Positions 7,457 to 26,511 of a stretch of 64,000 nt of DNA are shown here, one piece after another. Every line of letters starts with the position of its first letter. Position 1 is the first letter of the stretch. The translations under genes and the position numbers were made by a program. The notes beneath the pieces were generated by a model. It was not told the DNA's origin, made no database searches, and saw only the letters and a list, made by a program, of their open reading frames with translations. This DNA is from Paeniglutamicibacter gangotriensis Lz1y (GTDB lineage: Bacteria; Actinomycetota; Actinomycetes; Actinomycetales; Micrococcaceae): positions 248,001 through 312,000 of the forward strand of contig NZ_AOCK01000005.1 of assembly GCF_000348945.1 (NCBI RefSeq), given 5' to 3'.

Positions 7457-8785
7457 ATGGCAAACCAATCCCCCACCGGGCTGGACACCTCCCAGCACCA
7501 CCTCGAGATATCGCCCAAGGCCCGACGCCGGGCACTGGTATCCAGCTTCTTGGGCTCGACGGTCGAATACTACGACTTCCTGCTCTACGGCGCCGCCGCA
7601 GGGCTGGTCTTCCCCCACCTATTCTTCCCGGACACCATGGACCCGGGGTTGGGGACCGTCCTGTCCTTCGTGATCCTGCTGGCCGGCTACATTGCCCGCC
7701 CGGTAGGCGGTGTGCTCTTCGGCCACTTCGGCGACAAGTTTGGCCGCAAGAACATCCTGTTCATCACGCTGATGATGATGGGCATCGTTTCCGTTGCCAT
7801 CGGCCTGATGCCGACCTATCACACCATCGGCATCGCGGCCCCGCTGCTGTTGGTTCTGTTGCGTGTCATCCAGGGCCTGGCCGTGGGCGGCGAGTGGGCC
7901 GGTGCCACACTGATGGCGGCCGAACACGTGCAGGAAAAGAACCGTGGCTTCGCCGCCTCGATCGCGGTCACCGGCGGTCCGACCGGCTCAGTGTTGGCCA
8001 CCCTAATCCTGGGTCTTTTCGCCGGCCTGCCCGAGGAGGACTTCCTGGCTTGGGGCTGGCGCGTCCCGTTCCTGCTGTCCGCGGTCCTGGTCATCATCGG
8101 TCTGTACATGCGCTACCGCGTGACCGAATCTCCGGACTTCCTCAAGGCCAAGGCCGAAGGCGCAACCAGCACCGGAATGCCGCTGACCCGGGTGCTGCGC
8201 GATTACCCGAAAGAAACCATCCTGGGCACCTTGGCCGTGGCCGGCCCGCTGTTCATGCAGGCCATGCTGGCGATCTTCATGGTTCCGTATGTGGTGTCCA
8301 CCGGTGCGGTGGACCGACAGACCGCGCTGATGATGCTCACCGCTTCATCCTTCGTACACATCTTCGCCATCCCGTTCTTCGCCTGGCTCTCGGACCGTTA
8401 CGGTCGTCGCCCGGTGATGCTCGGCGGGGCACTGATTTCTGTGGCCCTGGTATTTCCGATGTTTGCGATGTTCAACTCCGGGGTGTTCTGGATGGTGGCG
8501 CTGGGCTTCATGGTCGGAAACCCGATCATCCAGGCGTCGATGTACGGACCGATCGGCGCTTTCCTGGCGGAGAAGTTCGACACCGAGTCCCGCTACACCG
8601 GGGTATCGATCACCTTCCAGGTCGGTTCGGTGCTTGGCGCAGGTCTGGCCCCGCTGATGAGCCAATGGTTGGTCGGGCTGGAGAACGGCGGCGGAACCAA
8701 CAACATCGCTTGGTACTTCATCTTCCTGATTGCCGTCGGCGCCGCGTGCGTGCTGCTCTCCAAGGAAACCCTGAAGCGTAAGTAA
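7457..8785 (+). CDS. MHS-family MFS transporter (metabolite:H+ symporter)
   Basis: A 442-residue protein with about twelve membrane segments. Its first segment, SSFLGSTVEYYDFLLYGAAAG, is the signature start of the metabolite:H+ symporter group (ProP, KgtP, ShiA). GHFGDKFGRKN is the conserved loop between segments 2 and 3. The frame runs upstream for hundreds of bases without meaning. The ATG at 7457 is chosen because ACGGAG precedes it and the protein then has the family length. It diverges from the dioxygenase operon, so it probably imports the aromatic acid that the operon degrades. The substrate is inferred from position only. Confidence 0.82.
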   Translation: MANQSPTGLDTSQHHLEISPKARRRALVSSFLGSTVEYYDFLLYGAAAGLVFPHLFFPDTMDPGLGTVLSFVILLAGYIARPVGGVLFGHFGDKFGRKNILFITLMMMGIVSVAIGLMPTYHTIGIAAPLLLVLLRVIQGLAVGGEWAGATLMAAEHVQEKNRGFAASIAVTGGPTGSVLATLILGLFAGLPEEDFLAWGWRVPFLLSAVLVIIGLYMRYRVTESPDFLKAKAEGATSTGMPLTRVLRDYPKETILGTLAVAGPLFMQAMLAIFMVPYVVSTGAVDRQTALMMLTASSFVHIFAIPFFAWLSDRYGRRPVMLGGALISVALVFPMFAMFNSGVFWMVALGFMVGNPIIQASMYGPIGAFLAEKFDTESRYTGVSITFQVGSVLGAGLAPLMSQWLVGLENGGGTNNIAWYFIFLIAVGAACVLLSKETLKRK

Positions 8786-8918: not shown

Positions 8919-9368
8919 ATGGCACTACCGGCAACCCTGTCCGAATTCACCGCACGCTGGGATAAGTTCCGCGATTCGCTCGGTTTCGAGGACATCACCT
9001 TTACGCTGCGGCTGACCCCGCATGCGGTCACGGAAGACTCGATGAGCTTCTCGATGCCGCTCTGCGATGAGCTGTCGCAAGCCAATGGGATGTTTGCCGC
9101 GGCATCGCTCTTTGGTGCCGCAGACATCGCCGGAACCTTCCTGGCCATGAATGCCTACGCCGATGCCGGACAGTTCCCGCTGGCCGTGCAATCGAATGTG
9201 AACTTCATGTCCAATTCCAAGTCCGGTCCGGCCGTGGCCACCGCGCGCATCCTGCGCGGCGGCTCCTCGGTGGTCGTGGTCGAGGTCCAAGTCGCCGACG
9301 CCGAAGCCAAGGCGCTGGTACACACCACCTTCACCTACGTGCTCAAGGAACGCCGACTGGGAAAATAG
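8919..9368 (+). CDS. PaaI-family hotdog-fold thioesterase
   Basis: This 149-residue protein resembles the PaaI/YiiD hotdog group. It has an internal segment LSQANGMFAAASLFGAADIAGTFLAM, matching the long central helix with its catalytic-type Asn and Asp positions. The strand VQSNVNFMSNSKSGPAVATARILRGG follows. Such enzymes hydrolyse stalled or dead-end aryl-CoA or acyl-CoA esters. TGGAGGA lies just ahead of the ATG at 8919. It follows the MHS transporter on the same strand and complements the CoA ligase in the dioxygenase operon, which suggests rescue of CoA from aromatic thioesters. The substrate is unproven. Confidence 0.72.
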   Translation: MALPATLSEFTARWDKFRDSLGFEDITFTLRLTPHAVTEDSMSFSMPLCDELSQANGMFAAASLFGAADIAGTFLAMNAYADAGQFPLAVQSNVNFMSNSKSGPAVATARILRGGSSVVVVEVQVADAEAKALVHTTFTYVLKERRLGK

Positions 9369-9387
9369 TTGCTTCGCGGTACCTCGT

Positions 9388-10017
9388 TCAGCGCACCGGC
9401 GGATCCAACAGCGAACTAAACATGGCGCTGGCTCGCACCACGGCAGATTGCCAGTCGTTTGCAAATTCCTCCGGATCCTCGGTGAACGCGTAGCGAGTGA
9501 TGGTCCCGGCCAGCAGCACCAAGGCGTGCTGCGCGCCGGGATCATGAGGCAATTCGTGGGCAAGCAACGCTGCCTGATGCGGCTTGAGCCGCTCAATGAG
9601 TGCGTCGGCCACCAGTTGTTCTGCCGCTTGGACGTGAACATGGGTGCGCCGACGCAGCTCGGGAAAGGCCCGCACCATTTCACGGCGTCGGCGAAACCCC
9701 TCCCCTGCTTGCGTGCTGGTGTTCAGCACCGCGGCCAGAAGCTTGGCGGTTCGGGGCAGAACCTCCAACTTTGAAGAAACAAATTCCTCCCAATCGGCTT
9801 CCGGCAGCCAGGGGGCGCGGGTGCCGAGCACCGCATCTTCCTTGGTGGGGAAATAATTGAAGAAGCTGCGCCGCGAGACTTCCGCTTCCGCGGCGATGGA
9901 ATCAACGGTGGTCGCCGCGAGGCCTTTCTCCAGCACCAATAGCACCGCTGCCTCATGGATCTTCATCCAGTGCTGATTTCGGCGGGCAGCGCGCGCACCC
10001 TGATTCATCTCATTCAT
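9388..10017 (-). CDS. TetR-family transcriptional regulator (probable mhp regulator)
   Basis: A TetR-type repressor of about 209 residues. The N-terminal helix-turn-helix is clear (TTVDSIAAEAEVSRRSFFNY, then FPTKEDAV) near residues 33-60, and the ligand-binding helical domain is variable. The open frame extends to 10176, but the ATG at 10017 (MNEMNQGARAARR) gives the normal family start. Eleven bases upstream of it lies the perfect palindrome TGCACTAGTGCA, a good candidate for its own operator. It diverges from mhpB, so control of the meta-cleavage operon is likely. TetR proteins are usually repressors released by a pathway intermediate; the ligand is not known here. Confidence 0.8.
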   Translation of the reverse strand: MNEMNQGARAARRNQHWMKIHEAAVLLVLEKGLAATTVDSIAAEAEVSRRSFFNYFPTKEDAVLGTRAPWLPEADWEEFVSSKLEVLPRTAKLLAAVLNTSTQAGEGFRRRREMVRAFPELRRRTHVHVQAAEQLVADALIERLKPHQAALLAHELPHDPGAQHALVLLAGTITRYAFTEDPEEFANDWQSAVVRASAMFSSLLDPPVR

Positions 10018-19379: not shown

Positions 19380-20159
19380 CTAACCCGCTGAGCCCCGGCT
19401 AGGTGCCGCGTGGGCAAGAGCCGGTTGGTCATCGAACACCGGGGCCATCTTCCGGCCGGCCGCATGCAGGATCCGCTGCGTCGTTTCCTTCTCCACCGCC
19501 GAGGCGGCTGCCGCCGAGGCGGCTGCCGCCGGAGGACCGGGCACCCAGGTCCACCGGTTCCGCTGCGCCAGCTCGCGCAGGTTCGTCCGGTTCCGCTCAT
19601 GCAGGGAGGTGGGTGCTGCAGGGAAACTTCCGAGCACCAATACGCCGTCGACAAAGCCGCGGGAGACCGCGGCTTCCAGGGTCAGCGCAGTGTGGTTCAA
19701 CGTGCCCAGGTCCGGACGGGCGACCACCACCAAACGTGCTCCCAGCGCGCGGGCCATGTCGGCGATGGTTTCCCCCGCAAGTGTCAGGGACACCAGCAGT
19801 CCGCCGGCACCCTCGACGATGACGACCTCGTGCTCGCGCGCCAGTGCTTGGACGCGCCGCACGTGGTCCGCTAGGGTTGGCAGAGCTTCCGCCGCGGCGA
19901 TCCCGCCGGAGTGCAGGGCGGCGTCCACCGGAGCCATGGGATCGGCCAGCCGGGCGCCTTCTTCCAAGGTCAGTGCCCGCGGATTCCCGAGCCAGTGACC
20001 GATCGAGTGCACATCCCCGCCCTGCCCGGGTTCCACACCGGTTTGGGTCGGCTTGTAGATGGCAACCCGCGCGCCCCCTTCCAGGGCGCAGGCGGCCAGG
20101 GCTGCGGTGACAACGGTCTTGCCGACGTCGGTGTCGGTCCCGGTGACCACAAGGATCAT
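19380..20159 (-). CDS. bioD: Dethiobiotin synthetase
   Basis: A 259-residue enzyme with the P-loop GTDTDVGKT at residues 7-15, YKPTQTGV near 36 and EGAGGLLV near 115, all typical of BioD. It would close the ureido ring of dethiobiotin from 7,8-diaminopelargonate, CO2 and ATP. The start at 20159 overlaps the stop of the P450 gene by four bases (ATGA); a start 33 bases upstream is less likely. A low-complexity alanine and serine stretch (about residues 205-220) is unusual for the family. It is the last gene of the biotin operon. Confidence 0.9.
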   Translation of the reverse strand: MILVVTGTDTDVGKTVVTAALAACALEGGARVAIYKPTQTGVEPGQGGDVHSIGHWLGNPRALTLEEGARLADPMAPVDAALHSGGIAAAEALPTLADHVRRVQALAREHEVVIVEGAGGLLVSLTLAGETIADMARALGARLVVVARPDLGTLNHTALTLEAAVSRGFVDGVLVLGSFPAAPTSLHERNRTNLRELAQRNRWTWVPGPPAAAASAAAASAVEKETTQRILHAAGRKMAPVFDDQPALAHAAPSRGSAG

Positions 20160-21325
20160 GTCGCTGCCCCCGCCGCGGCCAGCGAGGTCCACACCGTCCG
20201 GGGTGCCTGGAAGGAGAGCAGGTGCATCCAGTCAGGTTCCGGGCCGGCCGGCTCGAGGCCCGGCAGGGCGCGTGCCGCGGCATTCAGGACCACCTCGGTT
20301 TCCATCCGGGCCAGCCCCGCGCCCAGGCAGCGGTGGATCCCGAAACCGAAGGCCAGCGAATCGTCGTTCTCCTCCCCCAGGACCCCGCCGGAGAGCTTGA
20401 GCACCAGCTGCTCCCCTTGGGCAAAATGTTCCCCGTCCAGTTCGGTGTCCGCGGCGACGCTTCTGCGCCAGGTCGGTACCGAAGAGGCCTGCGCCAGCAC
20501 CTGGCCCACTAGGTCCGCAGCGGATTCTTTTTCGGTGCACCGGGCCCAACGGCGTTCGTGCAGGGCGGTGCGCAGCGCGGTCTGGATCAGCATGGCGGTG
20601 GTTTCCTGCCCGGCGATCATCAGAAAGTAGCCCAGCGAGCGGATCCTCGCCGGGTCGAGCCCGGAGTGGTGCAACGCGGCATAGAGGTTCGAATCGTCGC
20701 GGGCCACCGCCTCGGCCACGGAGGTGTCGAGCCAGGCATGGAATTGCGCGGCGCTTGCCGCAAGTTCCTTCTGGCGTTGCGCGTCGGGCCAGCCCCAGAA
20801 GAGCTCCAGCGAGTCCCGGCTCCAGCGCTTGAGCTCCGCGACCGGCGGGATCGGGACCCCGGTGAGCCGGTGCATGACCTCCGGTGGGATCACCGCGGCC
20901 AGATGGTGTGCCAGATCGATGCGCTCGCCGCTGCGGTATTGCTCCGCAAGCTCCGCGCAGATCCCTTGCACCCGCTCCCTGATGGGCCCGGCCTGTGCGG
21001 CCACCTTCGCGGGGCTGAAGAACCTGGCCACCACCCGGCGGACATTCAGGTGCTCGGCCCCGCCGGCGCTGGCCAGCACCGGCGGCAGCGAGAACCGCTG
21101 GGCGGCCAAGATGCGCAGGGCAGCAGGTTCCAGGTCGATGGCCGTGTCCAGGGCGTTCTCGGGCGTAAAGTCCTCGGGGCGCAGAAGGATCCGGCGTACC
21201 AAGCCGGGGTCCTCGATGCTGCGGTAGCGGCGGTTGATTTCTTCCGGGTAGGCAGCGGGCAGCGGTCCGTCCAGCGGCGCCCGCTCGGCGAGCGTTGCGT
21301 GCCGGGCCGTCATAGGGCAACTCAT
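20156..21325 (-). CDS. Atypical cytochrome P450 embedded in the biotin operon
   Basis: This 389-residue protein is a bacterial class I P450. The I-helix motif AGQETT lies at 238-243. The haem-binding loop FGFGIHRCLGAG has the thiolate at Cys333. The K-helix, however, reads QVLA at 275-278 where ExxR is expected, and the meander between the K' region and the haem loop is shortened. It sits between bioF and bioD with ATGA overlaps at both ends and GGAGGA before its ATG at 21325. In Bacillus the P450 BioI makes pimeloyl-ACP by cleaving acyl-ACP, so this protein may supply the pimeloyl precursor; no bioC or bioH is seen here. That role is inference. A catalytically altered P450 is also possible. 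Confidence 0.82.
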   Translation of the reverse strand: MSCPMTARHATLAERAPLDGPLPAAYPEEINRRYRSIEDPGLVRRILLRPEDFTPENALDTAIDLEPAALRILAAQRFSLPPVLASAGGAEHLNVRRVVARFFSPAKVAAQAGPIRERVQGICAELAEQYRSGERIDLAHHLAAVIPPEVMHRLTGVPIPPVAELKRWSRDSLELFWGWPDAQRQKELAASAAQFHAWLDTSVAEAVARDDSNLYAALHHSGLDPARIRSLGYFLMIAGQETTAMLIQTALRTALHERRWARCTEKESAADLVGQVLAQASSVPTWRRSVAADTELDGEHFAQGEQLVLKLSGGVLGEENDDSLAFGFGIHRCLGAGLARMETEVVLNAAARALPGLEPAGPEPDWMHLLSFQAPRTVWTSLAAAGAAT

Positions 21326-22536
21326 GATTCTTCCTCCAGGATGGTGGCGGCAATGGTGTGCAGGGCGGCGAGCAGCTCGCGCCGGTGGTGGTTGGCGTGG
21401 GCGGTGATCCTCAGCCGGGAGATCCCGTCCGGGACGCTCGGTGGACGGAAGCAGGCCACGGCGATGCCGCGGGCGCGCAGGGCTGCGGCGGTGCGCACCG
21501 CGATGGCGGCGTCCGCCATGGTGATCGAGTGCACCGCGCCGGCACCCCGCTCGATGCGCCCAGACAGCTGCGGCACCGCGGCCAGGGTGTCGTGCACCAG
21601 GGCGGCGTTGCGCCCCAGCCGTCCCAACAGCTGAGCGTCGGCCAGTTCCAGGGCGGCCAGTGCGGCGCCGGCGGCGGCCGGGACCAGCGCGGTGTCGAAG
21701 AGGAAGGTGCGGGCGGTGTTCACCAGGTGCTCGCGCAGCAACCCCGCCGCTTCCCCGCCCAGTAGCACCACCCCTCCTTGGGCGCCCAGGGCCTTGGAGA
21801 GCGTGGCGGTGGCGATGACGTGCCCTGCCCCGGCCAGTCCGGCGGCGCGCAGAGCCGATCCGGTGTGCGTGGCGGCCAGCGAGTGGGCTTCGTCGATGAG
21901 AAGCAGCGCTCCGAACTCGGTGCACAGTGCACCCGCGGCGGCCAGGTCGGCGGCGTCCCCCAGCACCGAATAGACGGATTCGAGCACCAGGGCCACGCGC
22001 GGGGCCGGTGCAGGCGAGTCGCGGTTTGCCTCAAGCAGCGCCCTGGCGGCGTCGAGGTCGTTGTGTGCGGCGGTGGCCACCCTGGCCCCGGAGAGGCGGG
22101 CGCCGTCGATCAGGCTGGCGTGGGCGTGGGCGTCGAGGATGAAGTGGCTGCCCGGTCCGCCCAGGGCCTGCAAGACACCGAGGTTCGCGGTGTATCCGCT
22201 GGAAAACACCAGCGCTGCAGCCCTGCCGGTGTAGTCGCACAGCGCCTCCTCGAGCGCGGTGTGCACCGCCAGGGTGCCGGTGGCCACGCGGCTGGCGGCG
22301 GCACCTGCCCCGTGGCGGGCAGCGGCCTCCCCGGCGGCGGCACGCACCGCCGGGTGCGCACCAAGGCCCAGGTAGTCGTTGGAGGCCAGGTCCACCAATT
22401 GCCCGCGATTGCTCTCCACCCGGTGCAGCCCGCGGGCCGCGCGCACCCTCGCCCGTCCGCCCAGCCATCTCTCCCATGTCTCCGGAACCGCCGTGTGCGC
22501 CTCGGCGGCCGGGGCGCTGCTAGGAGCCGTGGACAT
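21322..22536 (-). CDS. bioF: 8-amino-7-oxononanoate synthase
   Basis: A PLP-dependent alpha-oxoamine synthase of 404 residues. Evidence includes LASNDYLGLGAHP near residue 50, the aspartate motif LLIDEAHS near 210 and the PLP lysine in TATLSKALGAQGG near 240. It would condense pimeloyl-ACP or pimeloyl-CoA with alanine. The ATG at 22536 lies inside the end of bioA, a 17-base overlap; a start at 22554 is also open. It overlaps the next gene, the P450, by four bases. Confidence 0.9.
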   Translation of the reverse strand: MSTAPSSAPAAEAHTAVPETWERWLGGRARVRAARGLHRVESNRGQLVDLASNDYLGLGAHPAVRAAAGEAAARHGAGAAASRVATGTLAVHTALEEALCDYTGRAAALVFSSGYTANLGVLQALGGPGSHFILDAHAHASLIDGARLSGARVATAAHNDLDAARALLEANRDSPAPAPRVALVLESVYSVLGDAADLAAAGALCTEFGALLLIDEAHSLAATHTGSALRAAGLAGAGHVIATATLSKALGAQGGVVLLGGEAAGLLREHLVNTARTFLFDTALVPAAAGAALAALELADAQLLGRLGRNAALVHDTLAAVPQLSGRIERGAGAVHSITMADAAIAVRTAAALRARGIAVACFRPPSVPDGISRLRITAHANHHRRELLAALHTIAATILEEES

Positions 22537-23896
22537 GTTCCACCGCCGCGACAAGGGCCGCGCCCAGTAGCCGAATCTCGTCCCTGCTACTGATGTAGGG
22601 CGGCATGACGTAGAGCAGGTCGCGGAAGGGCCGCACCCACGCCCCCTGGCGGACCGCGGCCGCTGTCACCTCTGCCAGGGCAACAGGTTCGTGCAGCTGG
22701 ATGACGCCGACCCCGCCCAGCACGCGCACGTCTTTCACGGACGACAGCGCGGCGGCCGGGTCGAGGGCTTCTCGCAGCCCTGTTTCCAGCGCGGCAATCT
22801 GCTCGCGCCAGGGCGCATCGGCGGCGCGCGGGTCGCCTCCGCCGGTGAGCAGTCCCAGCGAGGCGTTGGCCACCGCACAGGCCAGCGGGTTGCCCATGAA
22901 GGTGGGCCCGTGTAGCAGCGCCGAGCCGCTGCCGTACGCCCCGTCCAGGGCGCCTGCGACCTTCGGGGTGCAGAGCATCGCGGCCAGGGTCAGGTAGCCG
23001 CCGGTCAGCGCCTTGCCCACGCACATCACATCCGGCACCACGCCCGCCCATTCGCTGGCAAACAGCGTGCCGGTGCGCCCGAAACCGGTGGCGATCTCAT
23101 CGAGCACCAGCAGCAGGTCGTGTTCGTCGGCGATCTCGCGCAGCACGCGCAGCGCAGCCGGGGCATAGACGTACATGCCCCCCGCGCCCTGCAGGACCGG
23201 CTCGGCAATGATCCCGGCCAGTTCCGGGGCATGGGCCGCGGCCAGCGCGCGGGCCTCGGTTTCCCAGACGGTAAACTCGGCCGCATCGAATTCCCAGCTG
23301 CCTTCCACTGTCAGCCGGGCGGCCGGGGGCCGGGGCAGGAAGAGTTGTTCGGCCCCGGGACGGGCGAAGGCCGCGTGCATGCCGTCGACCGGGTCGCAGA
23401 CGCCCATCGCCGCGAAGGTGTCCCCGTGGTAGCCGCCGCGCAGCGCGGCGAAGCGCTGCCGACCGGTGTGCCCGCGGGCGTGGTGGTACTGCAGCACGAG
23501 CTTGAGCGCGACCTCCACGGAGATCGACCCGGAGTCGGCCAGGAACACGTGGGACAGGTCGCCCGGGGCCATGGCCACCAGCCGCTCGGCCAGTTCCACG
23601 GCAGGGGCGTGGGTCAGCCCGCCGAACATCACGTGGCTGAACGAATCGATCTGTGCGTGGGCGGCGGCATCCAGCACCGGGTGGCGGTAGCCGTGCACCA
23701 TCGACCACCAGGAGCCCATGCCGTCGATTACCTCGTGGGTGCCATGAGCGTCCTCGAGCGTGAGCCGCACACCCTTGGCCCCGGTGACCGCGTAGCGAGC
23801 ACCGGCGTCCAGGGAGGCATAGGGGTGCCAGAGCAGGCCGGCGTCCCGGGCCAGCAGGTCCTGCCCCTGGCTCACCAGGCTGGTTGCGGCGTTCAT
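22520..23896 (-). CDS. bioA: Adenosylmethionine-8-amino-7-oxononanoate aminotransferase
   Basis: This 458-residue class III aminotransferase carries LLWHPYASL near residue 20, [16 protein letters not shown] near 55, the cofactor aspartate in [13 protein letters not shown] near 255 and the PLP lysine in [15 protein letters not shown] near 285. These segments identify BioA, which uses SAM as amino donor. The start at 23896 overlaps the bioB stop by four bases (ATGA). It is second in the operon. Length and motifs are normal for the family. Confidence 0.92.
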
Positions 23897-25122
23897 GCGT
23901 TGGGGATTTCCCCGGTTCCTGCACCGCGGCGACGCAGCACCGGTTCGGCGCCGTGGGCCGGGCCGCAACCCAGGGAAGCCCCCGCACCGCAACCGGAACC
24001 GCAGGAACTTCCACATCCCGGGGCCTCGGTGGCGGCAGGGGCTTCGTCTGCCCGGTGGCGCAGGCGTGCAGCGAGCTCGGCCGGGTCGGTGTCCTCCTGG
24101 CCCAGGATCACGTACCCGGAGTCGGAGATCATTTCCAGGTCGCGGCGCGCATCCTGGCCCTCACTGGTGAGGTAGTCGCCGAGGAACAACGAGTTGGCCA
24201 CGGCCAGCGCGGTGGCCTGCAGGGTGCGCAGGTGCATTTCGCGCCCGGCGGCCATGCGCAGTTCGGCGGAGGGTGCGGCCAGGCGGACCAGGGCCAGGAT
24301 GCGCAGGCACGCCAGCGGGGTCAGGTGCCAGGTCCCGGCCAGCGGGGTGCCGTCGAAGGGCATCAGGAAGTTCACCGGAATCGAGTCGGCTTCCAGCTCA
24401 CGCAGCGCGAAGACGGCCTCGACGAGCTGCTCGGGGGTCTCGCCCATGCCCACGATGAGCCCGGAGCACGGGGAGAGTCCGGCGTCCTTGGCCGCCCCGA
24501 TGGTGTCCACACGCTCGGCGAAGGTGTGGGTCGAGCAGATCTCCGGGTAGAGGGATTCGGCGGTGTTCAAGTTGTGGTTGTAGGCATCGGCACCGGCGTC
24601 GCGCAGCTTTTGCGCCTGCCCGTCCTTCAGGATCCCCAGGCAGGCGCAGACCTCCACCTGCGGGTTCTCGTCCTTGATCTGGCCGATCATGGTGGCCACG
24701 CGGTCCACGTCGCGGTTGCTGGGTCCCTTGCCGGAGGCGACCATGCACACACGTGAGGCGCCGCCGGCAATGCCGAGCCCGGCCTGGTGCACGGCCTCGT
24801 CGGGCTTGAGCCAGGTGTACTTGAGGATCTCGGCTTTGGAACCCAGGCGCTGGGAGCAGTAGGTGCAGTCCTCGGGGCAAAGCCCCGACTTGAGGTTCAC
24901 CAGGTAGTTGACCTTCACGGTGTTGCCGAAGTGCTTGCGGCGCAGGGTTCCCGCCGCGGCGATCAGTCCGAGGGTGGCCTCGTCCGGGGTCTGCAGGACG
25001 GCGAGCGCTTCGTCGGTTGTGAGCCGGTGTCCGGCATCGATGCGCGCGGCCAGCTCTGCGGCATCCAGGATCCCGTTGGAGGCAGCTGCGGCGGGCGCAG
25101 GGATGGTGTTGGTCGTGGTCAT
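23893..25122 (-). CDS. bioB: Biotin synthase with cysteine-rich C-terminal tail
   Basis: A 409-residue radical SAM enzyme. The [4Fe-4S] motif CPEDCTYC uses Cys82, Cys86 and Cys89. YNHNLNTAE and the later [16 protein letters not shown] are BioB hallmarks. It would insert sulfur into dethiobiotin. After the normal end, a tail with [19 protein letters not shown] adds four closely spaced cysteines, plus Gly, that the E. coli enzyme lacks; this may bind metal or aid cluster supply. The ATG at 25122 is preceded by GGAAGG. Two BioQ-like operators lie upstream. Confidence 0.92.
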
Positions 25123-25202
25123 GGCGGGGGGCCTTCCGGTCGGGCGCTTCTCGGCGGTGACATGGGAGTCCGGGCCATGCACAATGCATTCCGAACATCA
25201 CG

Positions 25203-25401: not shown

Positions 25402-26511
25402 ATGCCCGAAACACCCTTACATCAGCTGCTGGGCCGCGAGCTGGCCCAACGGGTCCTGGACCACATAGCCCCCGCACTGCACCACAACGTCAATGTCATG
25501 GACCGCAACGGAATCATCATCGCTTCACGCGACCCGGCAAGGCTAGGGACTCTGCATCGTGCCGCGCTGGCCGTCGCCTCCACCGGCGAACCCGCAGTCA
25601 TCAGCGACGAAGAGGAAAACGGCGGCATGCGCCGTGGCGTCAACTTGCCCCTGGCCAATAACGGAGAGATCCTTGGTGTCATTGGCGTGACCGGGGACCC
25701 GGCGGTGGTCCGCCCGGTGGCCGAAGTACTGGTACTGACCATCGGTCTGCTGATAGCGCGGGAACAGGAACTGGACGCCACAGCCAGACGAGAGGCACGC
25801 GATCTGGATTTACTCTCTCGTCTGGTCAACGGCGCACCTGACCCGACGATCACCCTCCGGCAGCTCAGCGAACAGCACCCCGTGCTCGCAGGGCCCTGGC
25901 GGATCACTGCAGTGCTGGATTCCACGCTTCCCGAGCCTTCCCCGCCACCACTTCCACCATCCCGCTGGCCGCATGAAAGCCGACTCGGATCCGGAGGGCT
26001 CTACCGTTTTGCCTCCTTCCGGGGTGCGTTCTGGATCGTGGCGCGGGCAACCGAGGACCCTGCCCGAATCCGCACACTACTAGGGCCCGACCCCTCGAAA
26101 ATTGTCATCCACGGCGGCCCCTGTGCAAGTGTTGAAATGCTGCATGGCTCTGCGCGCACCCTGGGGGTACTGGTGGCCAACCACGGGCTGCTTCCCAGCG
26201 GCCGCCAGCATTTCGGGCAGGCAGAGCTGTCCGCAGAGCTTGCCGTCGCATGCCTTCCCGCAGATCTCAGGGCCCACCTGGCCGCACGAGTGCGCGGGCT
26301 ATCGGACATCCAGCTCGACACCCTGGCGGCGCTGCTCAACTCCGGCGGATCTCTGGCAAATGCGGGACGCCGACTTCACCTGCACCGCAACACCATCGTG
26401 CAGCGCATTGAGCGGATCGAACGGCTCACCGGCCTCGATCCCCGCGACCCCGCCAACAGGCCGTGCCTGTCGATGGCATTGATCGCAGATCGGCCAAACC
26501 GTGCACAATAA
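25402..26511 (+). CDS. CdaR-family regulator (sugar diacid/glycerate-type)
   Basis: This 369-residue protein has an N-terminal sugar-diacid recognition domain, with HHNVNVMDRNGIIIASRDPARLGTLH near residue 30 and GVNLPLANNGEILGVIGVTGDP near 80. The C-terminal PucR-type helix-turn-helix reads LNSGGSLANAGRRLHLHRNTIVQRIERIERLTGLDP near 315-350. CdaR activates uptake and breakdown of glucarate, galactarate and glycerate in E. coli. It sits directly upstream of a glycerate kinase and a GntP permease, so it most likely controls them in response to glycerate or a related acid. The ATG at 25402 gives the expected N-terminus. Confidence 0.85.
   Translation: MPETPLHQLLGRELAQRVLDHIAPALHHNVNVMDRNGIIIASRDPARLGTLHRAALAVASTGEPAVISDEEENGGMRRGVNLPLANNGEILGVIGVTGDPAVVRPVAEVLVLTIGLLIAREQELDATARREARDLDLLSRLVNGAPDPTITLRQLSEQHPVLAGPWRITAVLDSTLPEPSPPPLPPSRWPHESRLGSGGLYRFASFRGAFWIVARATEDPARIRTLLGPDPSKIVIHGGPCASVEMLHGSARTLGVLVANHGLLPSGRQHFGQAELSAELAVACLPADLRAHLAARVRGLSDIQLDTLAALLNSGGSLANAGRRLHLHRNTIVQRIERIERLTGLDPRDPANRPCLSMALIADRPNRAQ

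Follow-up and report, generated by a model that had tools for sequence, protein, structure and literature searches.

The first stage is the variable part of biotin synthesis. P450BioI (CYP107H1) of Bacillus subtilis is a cytochrome P450 encoded in a biotin operon, and formation of the pimeloyl intermediate has been proposed for it. According to the accessible portions of three papers (PMC11089781, PMC12915131 and PMC7645780), BioI is dispensable in B. subtilis and BioW is the required enzyme; one of them, from 2025, terms BioI unique to that species. The accessible text of PMC12915131 also describes BioE of Elizabethkingia and Chlamydia, a diiron oxygenase that uses O2 to cleave long acyl chains on acyl carrier protein (ACP) into a pimeloyl thioester; it is a non-heme, ferritin-like protein and no P450. 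We found no report of an actinobacterial biotin-operon P450 in the open-licence literature, and other journals or databases may hold one. Here we analyse such a gene from Paeniglutamicibacter gangotriensis Lz1y, located in a 64,000-nucleotide stretch (the window; contig NZ_AOCK01000005.1, positions 248,001 to 312,000), and we consider it likely that its product is a dedicated biotin-pathway enzyme that supplies a pimeloyl thioester to BioF.

The window contains a compact biotin operon of five overlapping genes on the minus strand, in the order bioB-bioA-bioF-P450-bioD. The overlaps measure 4 bases between bioB and bioA, 17 between bioA and bioF, and 4 at either end of the P450 gene. The latter two had been described in an earlier, sequence-only reading of this stretch and agree with the coordinates: one ATGA is common to the bioF stop and the P450 start, and another to the P450 stop and the bioD start. 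An orthologue with at least 63% identity (E value 1.4e-147 or better) is found in 11 of 15 genomes of the genus, the window's included; identity to the window P450 in the ten others is 63–88%, and the remaining matches in these 15 genomes lie at E 1.6e-30 or weaker. The nearest named relative among the matches listed is Paeniglutamicibacter quisquiliarum (87%). In all 11 orthologues bioF ends four bases into the P450 gene, and in every one of them the bioD frame begins within the final four bases of the P450 frame. The ratio of nonsynonymous to synonymous substitution rates (dN/dS) is 0.20–0.35 over ten pairs, indicating purifying selection on the P450. Because it is conserved in the genus and under purifying selection, the gene is not a chance reading frame.

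A profile of the 11 orthologues detects the P450 in 58 of 197 genomes sampled from the window's family, representing 15 of 32 genera (E 1e-45 or better). We fetched 58 loci, comprising 57 of the profile-positive genomes (the window's own was excluded) and a further genome from the genus. bioA, bioF and bioD adjoin the P450 in 57 of them, and the 58th, which starts 104 bases before the P450, shows bioD. A scan of named genomes listed 80 loci. Among these, the P450 adjoins bioF or bioD in all 39 at 41–87% identity; three are truncated by contig ends, leaving bioD alone or else bioB, bioA and bioF with no bioD. They come from at least the genera Paeniglutamicibacter, Glutamicibacter, Arthrobacter, Specibacter, Sinomonas, Propioniferax, Microlunatus, Kribbella and Cryobacterium, plus unclassified genomes. 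None of the 41 next-best listed loci (25–32% identity) has bioB, bioF or bioD nearby at E 1e-6 within the available stretch; a bioA match (30%) lies beside one of them. The sequence-only reading had singled out confinement of orthologues to bio operons as a point to check, and bio genes indeed neighbour all 98 copies (the window, the 58 fetched and the 39 named loci, with some genomes counted twice). Two gene orders occur, with the P450 either between bioF and bioD or after bioD.

In a quick tree with long branches, 87 members separate from seven outgroup P450s with a Shimodaira–Hasegawa-like approximate likelihood-ratio support of 99. Wider samples gave 16 positive genomes of 396 at the order level (E 1e-40) and three of 396 at the phylum level (E 1e-70). 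Five of the 16 order-level matches (E 1e-60 to 1e-65) resemble in score the paralogue in the window's genome and are probably other P450s; that genome holds two further P450 matches, at 32% and 24% identity. Two pattern matches were obtained in viral contigs, neither related to the P450. The bio-operon P450 is a distinct P450 family and, among the examined copies, occurs only beside bio genes. Degeneration to a pseudogene was rejected, given the dN/dS values and the stop-free frames of at least 345 residues in 97 of the 98 extracted copies, the other ending at a contig end; in two family-sample matches a TGA falls within the aligned part.

The P450 also follows the biotin pathway across the family sample. 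bioB scores over its cut-off in 57 of the 58 P450 genomes versus 104 of the 197 overall (Fisher p 2.8e-19), and the sole P450 genome without it is a fragmented assembly. The surroundings of bioB, in stretches of up to 17 kb, were compared in the 47 bioB genomes that lack the P450: 32 show bioB alone, 12 show bioB with bioA, bioF and bioD, and three show a partial set. In the stretches around the P450, the early genes are present in every genome but one, whose stretch meets a contig end. When that case is scored as present, the early genes are present in 57 and absent from none of the P450 genomes, against 15 and 32 of those without the P450 (Fisher p 1.2e-15).

Other known sources of the pimeloyl moiety were sought in the same genomes. 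BioW was found in none of the 15 genus genomes and none of the 197 family-sample genomes, with B. subtilis positive as a control. No genus genome encodes a BioC over the cut-off, all 15 giving weak partial methyltransferase matches (best E 6.6e-19), and no family-sample genome yields BioC at E 1e-25; Escherichia coli scores over the cut-off. The sequence-only reading had raised a bioC–bioH or bioW set elsewhere in the genome as a rival source. The window's genome (4.32 Mb, completeness 100%) has no BioW, and its BioC and BioH matches are partial, none of them over the cut-off. For FabH, this genome has one protein over the cut-off and weaker condensing-enzyme matches, the best of which fits the 3-oxoacyl-ACP synthase III model NF006720 far over its cut-off; we take this model to cover OleA as well. 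No FabH-type match lies in the bio locus.

Genomic context points to the P450 as the likely source of the pimeloyl thioester. For the chemistry, we infer a substrate, a cleavage, an ACP carrier, a use of oxygen and electron donors as follows. The heme-thiolate monooxygenase would bind a long-chain acyl chain, probably on ACP, and repeated oxidation would cleave the C7–C8 bond to give pimeloyl-ACP, as BioI of B. subtilis does. Biotin would then have two natural P450 routes. None of the five operon genes encodes a redox partner, and electrons would come from housekeeping ferredoxin or flavodoxin systems. A bolder proposal strikes us as evenly balanced between true and false: that the family is new and shares no more than the superfamily with BioI, that it is both the sole and an essential pimeloyl source in many actinobacteria, that it arose independently of BioI from a CreJ/CYP116-like ancestor, and that its members lost ExxR and the meander several times without ceasing to catalyse. 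If true, biotin synthesis in these organisms would be a natural case of genuine dependence on a P450. A lineage whose one visible pimeloyl gene encodes a P450 would allow a direct test of whether oxidative cleavage of acyl-ACP feeds biotin synthesis in nature.

To compare the enzyme with solved P450s, we used an AlphaFold model built from 47 sequences, with a mean predicted local distance difference test score (pLDDT) of 91.3 and a predicted template-modelling score of 0.92; it supersedes an earlier model from 11 sequences (pLDDT 61). The fold is that of a P450: the best 50 PDB rows listed by Foldseek are titled P450 or CYP, a few being named by enzyme only. The top match is CreJ, with a template-modelling (TM) score of 0.82 and 28% identity, and CYP116B-type heme domains come next, ranks 1–9 spanning TM scores of 0.76–0.82. 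These proteins are also the nearest by profile (E 1.7e-36 and 1.8e-36). Differences from them are considerable: identity is 22–28%, the two aligned examples retain E..R and a longer meander, and no reductase domain is fused to the window P450. The rule for a shared CYP family, as given in the accessible part of PMC3599690, is more than 40% identity, whereas identity to CYP116 is 22–24%. The P450BioI–acyl-ACP complex appears at rank 10 (TM 0.74, 19% identity).

P450BioI resembles the window P450 in its operon setting, in its proposed role and in fold (TM 0.73–0.74). In contrast, identity is 18–20%, which under the same rule places the window P450 outside CYP107H, and the profile match (E 2.4e-18) stands near the end of the best 60 rows. 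All identities to BioI, CreJ and CYP116B are taken from the Foldseek alignments against the PDB. A plain BioI orthologue was therefore rejected, CreJ and CYP116B being nearer by both profile and fold. The genomic backgrounds differ as well: B. subtilis has BioW, whereas none was found in the family sample here, and the present P450 family spans many actinobacterial genera. Judging from profile and fold, the P450 family is separate from BioI and could work similarly.

Several observations weigh against a pimeloyl-forming role. Identity to BioI is low, and Foldseek ranks 10–50 have nearly equal TM scores (0.67–0.75). The BioC profiles may overlook divergent methyltransferases, as one of 14 controls (E. 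coli) scored over the cut-off, and the BioC and BioW searches were confined to the family sample. The class with bioB alone is defined by stretches of up to 17 kb, and bioA, bioF and bioD were not searched elsewhere in those genomes. The 12 bioBAFD genomes and the three with a partial set have neither the P450 nor BioC (E 1e-25) nor BioW. Because the 12 lack all three, missing BioC and BioW do not by themselves prove that the P450 is the pimeloyl source; these genomes either take up pimelate or intermediates, or else use a source that may also be present in P450 genomes. Open reading frames were listed for six of these 15 P450-less loci that retain some early genes, and no substitute gene was evident among the nine scanned beside five of them, which match phosphoenolpyruvate mutase, DUF222, a transposase, a short-chain fatty-acid transporter, an FGGY kinase or nothing. 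Nor does the co-occurrence count as wholly independent evidence, since the P450 gene sits inside the bio gene set. Linkage partly explains the co-loss, and remnants in two genomes of the genus suggest block deletions.

In one of those two genomes, bioB is followed by a weakly matching bioD scrap of 21 residues (L116, at about 8076–8138, E 0.004), and in the other by a bioA scrap (L117, at about 9000–9436, E 1.7e-45). Species with bioBAFD and no P450 belong, among others, to two genera coded g6 and g26; at the g6 loci L124, L127, L138, L148 and L154, the bioA match falls into two or three pieces.

The context data would also be compatible with a P450 that makes a pimelate precursor through another oxidation, for instance omega-oxidation of a medium-chain acid or the cleavage of a different substrate, with an unrecognised ligase acting afterwards, and the nearest solved relatives are indeed CreJ and CYP116B, not BioI. 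We regard this as unlikely: BioW is missing from the family sample and the operon encodes no ligase, so that a free acid would depend on a further activating enzyme. We give still less credence to a P450 acting elsewhere in the pathway, for example by modifying a late intermediate or biotin or by yielding a biotin-like secondary product. Any role for the protein rests on context, and the second gene order puts the P450 after bioD. The P450 was not seen with bioB alone, though, and BioF, BioA, BioD and BioB cover the later steps, leaving the first step without another candidate in the operon. Least credible is a degenerate, non-catalytic P450 retained to scaffold or regulate the operon: most members lack ExxR and a canonical meander, and a family of P450-derived activators is known (NCBIfam TIGR04515, which the window P450 matches far under the cut-off), but the cysteine, the preceding His-Arg and the threonine of AGQET are invariant in aligned distinct members, dN/dS is low, and a P450 family without ExxR, CYP157, has been reported.

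As the sequence-only reading had described, Cys333 and the I-helix AGQETT are intact, QVLA takes the place of ExxR, and the meander is shortened. The window P450 thus carries the superfamily's heme-thiolate loop (FxxGxxxCxG) and I-helix acid–threonine pair and lacks its ExxR. The Pfam p450 model covers only residues 318–348 (E 1.3e-6, over the cut-off), and several NCBIfam P450 models span longer parts, all far under their cut-offs. The meander before the heme loop has no sequence of the NRD...F..P..FD type, of which the seven outgroup P450s have some form. The K helix, raised earlier as a feature to inspect, is predicted to be intact despite the absent ExxR. The lowest-confidence internal blocks of the model are residues 81–90 and 311–320 (pLDDT 68 and 69), the latter in the meander.

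The 98 copies comprise 88 distinct members, and a census of these qualifies the absence of ExxR as a trait: it holds for 81 of the 88, the window's copy included, and not for the family as a whole. Seven members keep E..R: three are from genus g15, one is from g3, two are from Kribbella, and the last is from an unclassified Micrococcales strain and has a meander likewise similar to the canonical form. Two others retain the arginine only, and 79 have lost it, in 65 cases to alanine. An artefact of the K helix confined to one sequence was accordingly rejected. All seven outgroup P450s have E..R and a longer meander. By contrast, the residues that handle heme and oxygen are nearly constant in distinct members: the cysteine and the preceding His-Arg in 87 of 87, Thr242 in 88 of 88 and Glu241 in 87 of 88. 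The sole member without the I-helix acid, L101, reads AGQYTT.

On the quick tree, the K-helix arginine needs five changes and the full E..R six, two of which are forced by starred branches. The most economical history starts from an ExxR-bearing ancestor and proceeds through repeated loss of the K-helix pair and reduction of the meander, in whichever order. Coupling of the K-helix arginine to a meander arginine was rejected (5 of 9 versus 27 of 78, Fisher p 0.28). The sequence-only reading had cited the Streptomyces CYP157 family as an exception lacking ExxR, and the accessible part of PMC3599690 bears this out. According to that text, the arginine of CYP157 is replaced by tryptophan and its genes are conservon-linked, unlike the bio-operon P450, in which alanine prevails and the glutamate is usually lost too. 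We read the disappearance of ExxR and the canonical meander as structural drift tolerated by the family. Because E..R members share the same operon setting, ExxR loss is not supported as a sign of a novel enzyme; the operon, not the missing motif, is the informative feature. The proposal of the P450 as the missing pimeloyl source is favoured by its genomic context, and the supposed tie between ExxR loss and new chemistry is unsupported. Members with and without ExxR in one operon setting form a natural series on the roles of ExxR and the meander in P450 folding.

Table 1. Genes of the biotin operon and motifs of its P450, in window coordinates.
Feature	Position	Strand	Basis
bioB, biotin synthase	23893..25122	-	TIGR00433 over cut-off; GTG start at 25182 also open
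bioA, 7,8-diaminopelargonic acid aminotransferase	22520..23896	-	TIGR00508 over cut-off
bioF	21322..22536	-	TIGR00858 E 5.2e-86, best family, yet under curated cut-off
Bio-operon cytochrome P450, 389 residues	20156..21325	-	Open reading frame
I-helix AGQETT, residues 238-243	20597..20614	-	Sequence; helix predicted 225-256
K-helix ExxR position, QVLA, residues 275-278	20492..20503	-	Sequence; K helix predicted 266-280
Shortened meander, residues 311-325	20351..20395	-	Sequence, family alignment
Heme loop FGFGIHRCLG; Cys333 at 20327-20329	20321..20350	-	Sequence; Cys in 87/87 distinct members reaching the site
bioD, dethiobiotin synthase	19380..20159	-	TIGR00347 over cut-off

Divergent to bioB, on the plus strand (25402–26511), lies a regulator gene with sugar-diacid recognition and PucR-type helix-turn-helix domains. 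At a Microlunatus locus (L181), BioB and BioA appear to be fused: the bioB frame, 801 residues long counted from the match start, runs on into a C terminus resembling that of bioA. With the exception of L181, all inspected BioB proteins of the window type end in a conserved RRRGAGT...NA tail (23893–24105 in the window), and 43 of 103 have at least three cysteines within the last 70 residues. A second BioB type, about 36% identical to the window's, has a small cysteine-containing protein nearby (for example at L172, L188, L193, L194, L199, L097, L099, L104, L128 and L139). A BsaP-like motif occurs at 30 of 30 loci with this second type versus none of 103 with the window type, and the RRRGAGT...NA or cysteine-bearing tail of the latter is possibly a stand-in for BsaP. 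The cysteine spacing of the small protein at L199 equals that of Cys 44, 47 and 64 of BsaP as given in the accessible part of PMC11099021.
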